Assembly (NCBI RefSeq): GCF_039522665.1
Contig: NZ_BAAADV010000001.1
Location: forward strand, 310,001 to 374,000
Source: Natronoarchaeum mannanilyticum
GTDB lineage: Archaea > Halobacteriota > Halobacteria > Halobacteriales > Natronoarchaeaceae
Length of the DNA: 64,000 nt
Direction of reading: 5' to 3'
Of the stretch, positions 40,924 through 44,543 are shown in pieces. Made by a program: the position numbers and the translations under genes. The notes below the pieces were generated by a model. That model was given only the letters and a program-made list of their open reading frames with translations. It was not told where the DNA came from and ran no database searches. Each line of letters starts with the position of its first letter. Positions within the stretch are counted from its first letter, which is position 1.

Positions 40924-41568
40924 TCACTCTTCGGCGACGCTGATGACGTTCAGCAGCGAGTACACCGGGACGCCCTCGATGTCGTCGATCCCCTGCTTGT
41001 CCGCGAGCACGATGCAGGCGACGGGGTCGCCGCCCTCCTCGCGGATCGCCTCGACGGTCTCGCGCATCGTCGTGCCGCTGGTGATCGTGTCGTCGACGAC
41101 GTAGCACTCCCGATCGCGGATCTGCGCGAAGTTCCGGGAGAACGTGCCGCCCAGATCCTCCATGTCGCCTTCCTCCCACTGGTGCTTGCGCGGGGCGTAG
41201 GTCCCGAGGTCGGTGTCGAGTTCGCGGGCGACCACGGTGGCCAGCGGCGCGCCGGCCTTCTCGATGCCGATCGTCAGGTCGACCTCCTCGCCGTGCTTGG
41301 CGAGCATGTCGGCCATCGCCGTCCCGACGTGGGAGAGGCGCTTGCTGTCGCGGCCGATCGCGCTCCAGTCGACGTGGATGTCGTCCGGACCGCTGGCCGT
41401 CGGGCTGGGCGCCGAGACGGCTTCGGCGGCGCCGCCGGCGCCGCTGCGTTCCACGAGCCAGCTCGCCGTCTCGCGCGAGACGTTGAGCTCGTCCGCGATC
41501 TCCCCCTTCGAGAGCCCGCGGTCGGCGAGCTCTGCAGCGCTCTCGATGAGATCGTCGACGTTCTTCAT
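40924..41568 (-). CDS. gfcR: GfcR-type sugar-metabolism regulator (PRTase-like)
   Basis: A 214-residue protein. Residues 1-50 are a helix-turn-helix (GLSKGEIADELNVSRETASW) and the rest is a phosphoribosyltransferase fold with the PRPP loop VVDDTITSGTT near 158-168. Haloferax GfcR, as I recall, uses this fold as a ligand sensor (probably KDPG) and activates glycolytic and Entner-Doudoroff genes. It lies between kdgA and gdh, the same setting as in Haloferax where it neighbours gdh. A strong TTTTATAAA lies 22-30 bases upstream of ATG 41566-41568, so the mRNA is leaderless. Confidence 0.9.
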   Translation of the reverse strand: MKNVDDLIESAAELADRGLSKGEIADELNVSRETASWLVERSGAGGAAEAVSAPSPTASGPDDIHVDWSAIGRDSKRLSHVGTAMADMLAKHGEEVDLTIGIEKAGAPLATVVARELDTDLGTYAPRKHQWEEGDMEDLGGTFSRNFAQIRDRECYVVDDTITSGTTMRETVEAIREEGGDPVACIVLADKQGIDDIEGVPVYSLLNVISVAEE

Positions 41569-41789: not shown

Positions 41790-42857
41790 CTACAGCGAGT
41801 CGAACTCGACGGCGGTCTTGATCACGTCGTCGCCGTCGTCGAACGCGGGCGAGAGGTTGTCGACGTCGTAGACGCCGGTGATCAGGTCCTCGAACAGCCA
41901 CTCGGGAAGCTGCTGGATCGTCTCGACGGCGGCCTCGAAGTGCTTGACGTGGGAGTTGACGCTGCCGATCAGCGCCTTGTTGTGCAGGACGAACTCCTCG
42001 TGGAGCCGGCCGCCGTCGATCTCGAACTCCCAGGAATCGGGGACGCCCAGCAGCGCGCCGACGCCGTTGGGCGCCAGCGCCTCGATCGTCTGGAACGCGT
42101 GGGGCGGGTAGCCCGTGGCCTCGTACACGTAGTCCATCCCCTCGTGGGCCGCGGGCACCTCGTCGACGGGCGTCTCGCGGGAGTCGACGTACGTCGCGCC
42201 GAGCTCCTCGATGATGTCGATCGTCGGGTCCGGCCGGTCGCGACGGCCCAGGCAGTACGTGCGCTCGAACTCCTCGGTGTGCTCGAACATCGCGAGCGTC
42301 AGCAGGCCGAGGCTGCCGTTGCCCAGCACGAGGGCGGACTCAGGATTCCACTGGAACGCCGAGCGGGAGGCGTAGGCGTGCTCGTTCGCCTTCTCGGTGA
42401 TGCTGATCGGTTCGACGAGGAAGCCGAGTTCCGCGAGGTCGCGGGGGATCTCGATCAGGAACTCCTCGGGGCTGGTGAAAAAGTCGGACATGTAGCCGTG
42501 GGCGCCGACGATGCCGCGCTCGAAGTACTGGCCGTCGGGCGCCATGTCGGGCTCGCCGCGCTCGAAGTACTCGTTGGTGCCGTCGGGGGCGCGCCGGACC
42601 GTCGGGACGACGACGTCGCCCTCCGAGAACTCGGTCCCGTTCGGATCCTCGACGACGCCGACGGCCTCGTGGCCGAGCACGAGGTGGTCCTCGCCGTCGG
42701 GAAACCCGCCGTGGGCGCCGCTCATCACTTCGTGGTCGGTGCCGTCGACGCCGACCCGGAGCGTCCGCACCAGCGCCTCGCCGTCCTCGGGGTCGGGCCT
42801 GGGCTTTTCGATCACGGTCGGCTGTTCCTCGCCGCGGCGCACTGCGACAGCTTTCAT
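41790..42857 (-). CDS. gdh: halophilic glucose 1-dehydrogenase (medium-chain, zinc)
   Basis: A 355-residue medium-chain dehydrogenase, close to Haloferax GDH in length. The catalytic-zinc ligands are D38 (RVGVDGTDHE, Asp in place of the usual Cys) and H63 (LGHEAVG); an Glu near 149 (FLVEPISI) is the third. These are the haloarchaeal variant ligands. NADP-binding loop: VLGNGSLGLLTLA. It oxidises glucose to gluconolactone, the first step of the pathway whose later step is KdgA. ATG 42855-42857 is preferred although the frame stays open far upstream. A TATA-like element at 42884-42898 drives it. Confidence 0.93.
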   Translation of the reverse strand: MKAVAVRRGEEQPTVIEKPRPDPEDGEALVRTLRVGVDGTDHEVMSGAHGGFPDGEDHLVLGHEAVGVVEDPNGTEFSEGDVVVPTVRRAPDGTNEYFERGEPDMAPDGQYFERGIVGAHGYMSDFFTSPEEFLIEIPRDLAELGFLVEPISITEKANEHAYASRSAFQWNPESALVLGNGSLGLLTLAMFEHTEEFERTYCLGRRDRPDPTIDIIEELGATYVDSRETPVDEVPAAHEGMDYVYEATGYPPHAFQTIEALAPNGVGALLGVPDSWEFEIDGGRLHEEFVLHNKALIGSVNSHVKHFEAAVETIQQLPEWLFEDLITGVYDVDNLSPAFDDGDDVIKTAVEFDSL

Positions 42858-42883: not shown

Positions 42884-42898
42884 AAAGATTTATTCTTT
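42884..42898. promoter_or_regulatory. palindromic TATA region between gdh and a divergent transcript
   Basis: Plus strand AAAGATTTATTCTTT: arms AAAGA and TCTTT around TTTAT. Read on the minus strand it gives GAATAAATC about 30-38 bases before the gdh ATG. Read on the plus strand TTTATT (42889-42894) is about 25-30 bases before 42919, where the structured segment begins. It may serve both directions or act as an operator. Confidence 0.45.
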
Positions 42899-42918
42899 GT
42901 CGAGTAAAGGTCAAGCTG

Positions 42919-43044
42919 ACGGCGGATGCCAACCCCCGTGGTCTAACCGGCCGCTCCCCCCGCGGCCGTCTTCCCCACGGCGTCCGGTTTCCCCCACCGG
43001 ACGCCGAGCCACCATCCCCCTCCCCCGTCTCCGGCATCCGCCGT
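42919..43044 (+). ncRNA. candidate structured C-rich RNA divergent from gdh
   Basis: A nested set of perfect inverted repeats in a 315-base non-coding gap (42858-43172). Outer stem: ACGGCGGATGCC (42919-42930) with GGCATCCGCCGT (43033-43044), 12 bp. Inside: GTGGT (42938-42942) with GCCAC (43008-43012); hairpin 1 CGGCCGC (42948-42954)/GCGGCCG (42962-42968) with loop TCCCCCC; hairpin 2 CGGCGTCCGGT (42978-42988)/ACCGGACGCCG (42996-43006) with loop TTCCCCC. Loops and junctions are C-runs (G-runs on the other strand). A TATA-like TTTATT lies 25-30 bases before 42919. A further imperfect hairpin follows near 43091-43115. Strand is inferred from the promoter only. I do not recognise SRP, RNase P or box RNAs here. 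Confidence 0.45.
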
Positions 43045-43172
43045 ACCGTGCCATATCCTCTCTCCCCCTCGCCTCCGAGCGTTCGCCGAGCGGCGGCGCG
43101 ATGTCGCGGACGCCGCACCTCGAAAATCTCCGAACGCCACATCATTAAGACGGTGCCCGCGAGCATGGGCGT

Positions 43173-44543
43173 ATGGAGCGACACGACCTGCTGTATCGGC
43201 TCTACGACGAGTTCGACACCGAGCGGCTCAGGGAGTACCAGCAGTTCGTCGACCTGTTTCCGCCCGTGGACTCCCGGGTGGCGCTCGAACACTGGCAGAA
43301 CGCCAACGAGGAACTCGAGGACCGAAAGGACGAGATCCGCGGCGGCTTCGCCGTCGGCGAGACGTTCGCCGAGATCGCCGCGCGCGCCACGCGCGATCAG
43401 GCGTTCGCCGCGCTGGATCTCCACGCGAAGTACGACCGCGCCGTCAACGTGCTCGTGTTAGACGTCGACGAGACGCTGCGCTCGGCCGGCGGAACGGACA
43501 ACGAGATCCCCAGAGACACCCTCCACGTGCTGACCGAGTTCCACGAGGCGGGCGTCCCGATCGTGATCTGCACCGGCCAGACGCTCGAAAACGTCAAGGG
43601 GTTCATGATTCAGGGGCTGGGCAGCGAGATCGTCCACTCGGGCGATCTCTCGATCGTCTACGAGGCCGGCACCGGCGTGTTCACGCCCGGCCACGGCGCC
43701 GACACCAAGCAGCTGCTGTTCGAGGACCTGGATCACGAGACGCGGTCGATTTTCGATAACGTCCGCGCGCGCGTGTTGCCCGACGCCCCTGACGAGCTGC
43801 GCCGGGGCTGTCACCTCCAGGGCAACGAGTTCAACGTGACGCTCAAGCCCAACTTCGAGACCGGCTCCGATCGCGCCCGCGAAGTGATCGACGACGCGCT
43901 CGTCTACCTGCTGGATCTACTGGGCGACGTCGTCGTCGACGAGCTGGACGTAGACGCCGCCGCGGCGACCGGCGACGACCCCGCGATCGGCGCCGCGAGC
44001 GACGACGAACCGACCGGCGACGGCGAACTGACCGACGACGACGCGGGGAGCGGCGCCACCTCCGCGACCGACAGGGACGCCGGCGTTCCGGCCAACGAGT
44101 GGGCGCGAGCCTTCTACGGCGACGCCGACCCGGAGATCCGGCGCGTGCTGGAGCGAGCCGGCCGGTTCCCCGACGCCTCTCCCGAGGACGTTCCGGACGC
44201 CGTCGCGGAGACGTTCGACCGGATCGACGTCGCGTACTACGAGGCCGACGCCGCCGAGATCGGCAGCCTCGAACTCAACAAGGTCGTCGGCGTCGAGGCC
44301 GCCTTCGACGTGCTCGGGATCGACGACCCGTTCGCGCTGGTGATGGGCGACAGCAAGAGCGACCGGCGCGTCATGGAGTGGGTCGCCGAGCACGACGCCG
44401 GCATCGCCGCGGCGCCCAAGCACGCCTCACAGGAGACGCTCGAACACGTTCTGGAGCGCGACGAGCTCGTGTTCGGGCAGGGCCAGAGCGCCGAGATGCT
44501 CCGGACCGCCTACGCGCTGAACCAGCTCGCCGGCATTCCCTGA
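43173..44543 (+). CDS. HAD-superfamily hydrolase with acidic insert
   Basis: A 456-residue HAD enzyme. Motif I LVLDVDETLRSAG near residue 93, motif II VICTGQT near 130 and motif IV VMGDSKSDRRVMEW near 391 are all present, so it should be a phosphatase or phosphomutase. The cap region is interrupted by a low-complexity acidic stretch (about residues 262-305, DDDAGSGATSATD). Residues 1-85 form an extra helical N-terminal domain (RLREYQQFVDLFPPVD). Substrate unknown. A TCATTAAG about 25-30 bases before ATG 43173 is a TATA candidate. Confidence 0.85.
   Translation: MERHDLLYRLYDEFDTERLREYQQFVDLFPPVDSRVALEHWQNANEELEDRKDEIRGGFAVGETFAEIAARATRDQAFAALDLHAKYDRAVNVLVLDVDETLRSAGGTDNEIPRDTLHVLTEFHEAGVPIVICTGQTLENVKGFMIQGLGSEIVHSGDLSIVYEAGTGVFTPGHGADTKQLLFEDLDHETRSIFDNVRARVLPDAPDELRRGCHLQGNEFNVTLKPNFETGSDRAREVIDDALVYLLDLLGDVVVDELDVDAAAATGDDPAIGAASDDEPTGDGELTDDDAGSGATSATDRDAGVPANEWARAFYGDADPEIRRVLERAGRFPDASPEDVPDAVAETFDRIDVAYYEADAAEIGSLELNKVVGVEAAFDVLGIDDPFALVMGDSKSDRRVMEWVAEHDAGIAAAPKHASQETLEHVLERDELVFGQGQSAEMLRTAYALNQLAGIP

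Follow-up and report, generated by a model that had tools for sequence, protein, structure and literature searches.

The gene-free gap upstream of gdh, the glucose dehydrogenase gene in the window (the whole 64-kb stretch of DNA that was analysed), holds an element that is apparently non-coding, is conserved in structure and in place, and shows a bias towards the plus strand. On sequence grounds, positions 42918 to ~43062 of the plus strand are probably a stand-alone small RNA (sRNA) gene of ~130–145 nt, which would be co-regulated with gdh by TrmB/GfcR and would act through exposed C-rich motifs. A structured plus-strand RNA divergent from gdh had been proposed in the initial annotation, and it is strongly supported by the fold statistics as well as by the comparative evidence. 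The 315-base gene-free gap described there is bounded by the start codon of gdh (42857) and by the HAD gene (43173), and gfcR and a KDPG aldolase gene are found beyond gdh. The features of the region are as follows:

40924–41568, minus strand: gfcR, transcriptional regulator GfcR (NCBIfam NF045507, 395 bits; cut-off 300)
41829–42857, minus strand: gdh, glucose dehydrogenase (Pfam Glu_dehyd_C, E 2.9e-94)
42884–42908, unstranded: putative shared promoter/operator, with CAAAAGATTTATTC as BRE/TATA-like sequence for the RNA (plus strand) and AATAAATC for gdh (minus strand); palindrome TTTATTC-N6-GAGTAAA
42919–42930, plus strand: 5' arm of the outer stem P1, 12 bp, perfectly paired with 43033–43044
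42931–42937, plus strand: junction AACCCCC, unpaired in the fold and retained in the congener
42938–42978, plus strand: short inner stem GUGG/CCAC of the fold, around P2
42948–42968, plus strand: hairpin P2, 7 bp (arms 42948–42954/42962–42968), loop TCCCCCC, replaced by CAGCCC in other genera; the stem covaries
42978–43006, plus strand: hairpin P3, 11 bp (arms 42978–42988/42996–43006), loop TTCCCCC
43007–43032, plus strand: AGCCACCATCCCCCTCCCCCGTCTCC strand, mostly unpaired; CCAGCCACCATC is present also in the congener and in locus L189
43033–43044, plus strand: 3' arm of P1, partner of 42919–42930
43045–43069, plus strand: A(C)CCGTGCC, a conserved tail, and after it a pyrimidine tract; likely the 3' end region
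43173–44543, plus strand: HAD-family hydrolase (Pfam Hydrolase_3), with its own TATA-like ATTAA ~25 bases upstream; a neighbour outside the RNA

The 12-bp, 7-bp and 11-bp inverted repeats within 42919–43044 were confirmed at the positions given for them by the initial annotation, as were the C-run loops and junctions (for example TCCCCCC, TTCCCCC and AACCCCC), and the inner stem, described as 5 bp with one G-U pair, has 4 bp in the minimum-energy fold, or 5 if the G-U pair is counted. The plus strand from 42917 to 43046 folds with −65.9 kcal/mol, compared to −40.1 ± 3.2 kcal/mol for shuffled sequences (z = −8.0, with 0 of 200 shuffles folding equally well), and the minus-strand fold of the element has z = −5.1. 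Six runs of at least five C are present within 163 bases of the element, against a maximum of two such runs per 163-base stretch elsewhere on the plus strand of the window. The raw folding energy by itself is not exceptional (39 of the 492 window tiles fold as well or better); the element stands out when its composition is taken into account and, most of all, in the comparison with relatives. No further copy of the element was found in the genome, and a repeat or mobile element was rejected on this ground.

In the one congener compared (genome G001), the element occupies the same site beside gdh. The two-sequence consensus fold of both elements has 30 pairs, 24 of which are unchanged, 2 changed on one side, 4 compensatory (two in P1 and two in P3) and none broken. 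The AACCCCC, TTCCCCC and CCACCATCCCCCTC loops are retained in the congener despite the changed stem letters; the C-run of the P2 loop is absent from it, and its P3 is a different 11–12-bp stem that bears the loop ATTCCCCCCTC. Beyond the genus, we compared 131 gdh-upstream regions of the order, mostly obtained by an order-wide gdh search, and in many of them found a related RNA at the same distance behind the gdh operator; it is carried by Haloferax and by seven or more further genera of a single haloarchaeal family, f5. The genus g50 was taken as Haloferax because the GDH encoded at its loci L055 and L066 closely resembles the Haloferax mediterranei enzyme (PDB 2b5v). The related RNA comprises P1 (CGGTGAGCGCC...GGCGCTCACCG), P2, whose loop is YCAGCCC, further copies of CCAGCC on an unpaired strand, and then (A)CCCGTGCC, and its shape is kept across the genera, but not its sequence. 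When regions were chosen by sequence only (at least two CCAGCC within 160 bases after the operator), P1 was present at the same offset in 15 of the 15 regions obtained. There are 37 copies of CAGCC, compared to 4.9 expected, and each RNA has two to four motifs of this type in the loop and the unpaired strand.

The stems of this family covary. In a MAFFT alignment of 17 members, double compensatory changes occur in 9 of 16 pairs and 94.8% of the cells are paired, as opposed to 20–51% for slid control structures, and the covariation score is 0.304, compared to 0.153 ± 0.017 after shuffling (0 of 500). RNAalifold, unaided, gave the same helices with compensatory changes in 10 of 18 pairs, and an alignment of 21 members by covariance model, which is fitted to the structure, has double changes in 10 of 16 pairs (34 cells). 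For P1 in 22 taxa, including the window and the congener, double changes were seen in 8 of 11 pairs, and for P2, 72 of 72 cells are paired, compared to a mean of 35.7 and a maximum of 59 with strands swapped between species. These P1 and P2 figures call for caution because of circularity: the P1 arms of the 22 taxa were cut out manually and in part picked by pairing, and the register of P2 was also fixed manually. The MAFFT-based test and the sequence-only CCAGCC selection are free of that bias. In P1, G-U combinations outnumber A-C combinations by 12 to 2, and this surplus favours the plus strand as the functional RNA. Conservation of the stems with compensatory changes in relatives, the check set by the initial annotation, thus was found in the congener as well as in the family, and the RNA structure is conserved independently of coding.

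A covariance model of the family, R1, gave 26 matches at E ≤ 0.01 in 392 genomes of the order, and 24 of them are located at the gdh palindrome, with a single match in each genome; these genomes represent eight genera of the Haloferax family. The remaining two (L190 and L192) lack the palindrome and were taken as chance, and apart from these no haloarchaeal match was obtained in the 392 genomes beyond the Haloferax family. Genomes G187 and G330 were outside the training set of R1, yet both were matched, with very different P2 stems and the same TCCAGCCC loop. R1 fails to detect the elements of the window and of the congener, and the link between the window and the family runs through the congener; it rests on the place, P1, CCAGCCACCAT, the CCGTGCC tail and the alignment scores (window–G001, z 9.8; G001–L036, the latter from Halegenticoccus tardaugens, z 6.2; G001–L183, z 5.0; window–L043, z 4.7). 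The RNA is absent from the gdh-upstream regions of g2 and g3, sister genera in the window's own family, and g58 as well as some genomes of another family, f7 (L043, L064, L104 and L085/L095/L103), have divergent candidates beside gdh. At L043 (G281, positions 2586–2708), a gdh that is 79% identical to that of the window is accompanied by a HAD gene and a window-like P1, which suggests a joint transfer of gdh and the RNA. The HAD gene of the window adjoins gdh in many haloarchaea, including ones without the RNA.

Other structures were noticed at these sites. Five f17 loci (L107, L116, L148, L161 and L159) have a smaller, conserved block GGGTGGG...GCCCACCGCGCACATTC with a possible stem at the same place beside gdh, ~10–60 bases past GAGTAA and without CAGCC; the stems of the first four are smaller and fail to align with the family, and the block may be either a shortened relative or a separate RNA. 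A perfect ~22-bp hairpin, CGCTCGCCCGGTTACGGCCGAC-ATC-GTCGGCCGTAACCGGGCGAGCG, is found at the same place upstream of gdh at L145 (G101). A clear hairpin with a T-run follows the RNA at a matching place in L188, L189 and L191. In Haloferax (L055/L066 and other loci), a second hairpin 3' of P1, with the loop CCCGTGCCC and an AACCGC/GCGGTT stem around it, is accompanied by a T-rich tract, and the Haloferax RNA may therefore be ~190 nt long.

The promoter region agrees with a separate transcription unit. TTTATTC-N6-GAGTAAA at 42890–42908 is an imperfect palindrome, and the TATA-like TTTATT that had been reported 25–30 bases before the outer stem is located within it at 42890–42895, 29 bases ahead; the suggestion that the palindrome is common to the RNA and gdh is supported. 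It is retained at gdh in most haloarchaea examined, and the genome has one perfect (zero-mismatch) copy of TTAYTC-N6-GAGTAA. Across the relatives, P1 always starts 11–13 bases past GAGTAA and ~30 bases past the TATA-like box, and the RNA thus has, by sequence match, a promoter of its own at a fixed distance from its 5' end. The palindrome is present also at loci without the RNA, and therefore it need not serve the RNA. In Har. hispanica, a TrmB ChIP peak was detected at the gdh promoter (PMC10817205); the genome analysed here encodes TrmB-type regulators, and its GfcR gene adjoins gdh.

We therefore infer from the promoter sequences that the RNA is transcribed and co-regulated with gdh, and propose the following model. 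The RNA would be one member of a haloarchaeal family that is fixed beside gdh, its promoter would overlap the gdh promoter back to back, and one operator, bound by TrmB and/or GfcR, would set the RNA and gdh jointly by sugar supply. The outer stem would present a hairpin loop and an unpaired strand with repeated C-rich motifs, CAGCC in most genera and C5–C6 runs in the genus of the window, and these motifs would work in trans, most probably through base pairing with G-rich regions in the mRNAs of carbon metabolism and less likely through protein binding, in a role akin to that of bacterial metabolic sRNAs. The targets and the direction of control are speculative. Limited pattern searches for pairing with G-rich sites gave no convincing target: the complement of the AGCCACCATCCCCCTC strand has only its own locus with fewer than 3 mismatches in the genomes G000 and G001, and in genomes of the Haloferax family the matches to ATGGGCTGG starts lie inside longer open frames or in the RNA locus itself, with no convincing start among them.

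A protein decoy of the CsrB type, in which CAGCC or C-runs titrate an RNA-binding protein instead of pairing with mRNAs, would fit the repetition of a short motif, which each RNA carries two to four times in its loop and unpaired strand, as well as the lack of a long complementary target in the searches. However, the motif becomes C-runs in the genus of the window, we know of no haloarchaeal protein with CAGCC/C-run specificity, and we regard a decoy as improbable. A structured 5' leader or cis-regulator of the downstream gene (riboswitch-like, or an attenuator) is suggested by the HAD gene of the window, which is on the same strand 128 bases past P1, and by the same-strand downstream genes of L036 and g65, but it is quite unlikely, as the downstream gene varies by lineage (HAD in the window, Rpp30-like in L036, TANGO2/NRDE-like in L189) or is convergent (purB in Haloferax, GNAT in L064), all but the HAD gene having been assigned by eye from sequence. 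This variation argues that the RNA is not a leader; it does not lie on the same strand upstream of one conserved gene, and the HAD gene has its own TATA-like box and adjoins gdh also where the RNA is absent.

Inverted repeats exist in DNA too, and a regulated promoter is adjacent, so that a cruciform, an operator array or a quadruplex acting on the gdh promoter has to be considered. We judge such a DNA-level element very unlikely, since the excess of G-U over A-C has no DNA explanation and the C-rich parts are located in loops and differ between genera. Minus-strand quadruplexes had been suggested, but there is no G3+N1-7 x4 motif, and the G-runs are not conserved in other genera. Pairing of the C-runs with GGAGG leaders, also suggested, is weak, as most relatives carry CAGCC, a motif without complementarity to GGAGG; most mRNAs of haloarchaea lack a leader, and anti-Shine-Dalgarno pairing would be conceivable for the genus of the window alone. 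The change from C-runs to CAGCC between genera argues against a conserved role in either anti-Shine-Dalgarno pairing or quadruplexes, and the exposed CAGCC motifs have their counterpart in the C-runs of this genus. Coding constraint of a small protein gene could mimic conservation, and some relatives (L188, L189 and L036) have an ATG or GTG just ahead of P1. This explanation is hardly credible, however: the start codon is not conserved, with none there in Haloferax or the window, the window's open reading frame has 6 codons, the stems differ in length in ways that would break a frame, substitutions in one arm are compensated in the other, and a search for a conserved frame found none.

The RNA beside gdh is, by its sequence features, a good candidate for an undescribed sRNA co-regulated with sugar metabolism. 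Rfam 15 gave no match at gathering score for the window, Haloferax and six other loci, and lax searches gave chance matches or nothing; no description of the RNA was found in the literature searched, although the transcript may be listed unnamed in the supplementary tables of Haloferax transcriptomes. Near the gdh of Har. hispanica, Hackley et al. saw no unannotated transcript (PMC10817205), though R1 has only the two chance haloarchaeal matches outside the Haloferax family. Their TrmB-controlled unannotated ~200-nt transcript (peak 3, PMC10817205) likewise adjoins a TrmB site, but at a different place, and none was seen at gdh there. The intergenic sRNAs of H. volcanii (for example sRNA132, s479 and the 27 studied by deletion mutants in PMC3956466) are alike in size, intergenic place and own promoter, and some influence growth on sugars. 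However, none of the 27 is at gdh and 22 were found in H. volcanii only (PMC3956466), whereas the RNA described here has a structure conserved in at least eight genera. With RoxS/RsaE of the Firmicutes it shares several exposed, unpaired C-rich regions, which in those sRNAs can pair with G-rich central-metabolism targets (PMC5419742), although domain of life, sequence and fold are different and target pairing has been demonstrated for RoxS only.

Spot 42 of Escherichia coli is an sRNA tied to glucose supply, and we compare it in function, claiming no relation in sequence or structure. In its widest form, our reading is that an archaeal sRNA family of deep conservation, transcribed divergently from gdh and under the same sugar-sensing operator, reprograms carbon metabolism in trans via CAGCC or C-runs, which we put forward tentatively and with some doubt. 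Of the thousands of haloarchaeal sRNAs that have been listed, a small number are conserved, and hardly any have known targets or a structure backed by evidence; here, a covariation-supported RNA adjoins the gene of the key enzyme of the semi-phosphorylative Entner-Doudoroff pathway. Its presence in the genetic model Haloferax makes deletion, pair-wise mutation and glucose tests directly feasible. If the wider reading is true, the RNA would be an archaeal counterpart of bacterial sRNAs that are tied to glucose, and would join the small number of haloarchaeal sRNAs whose structure is conserved across genera.
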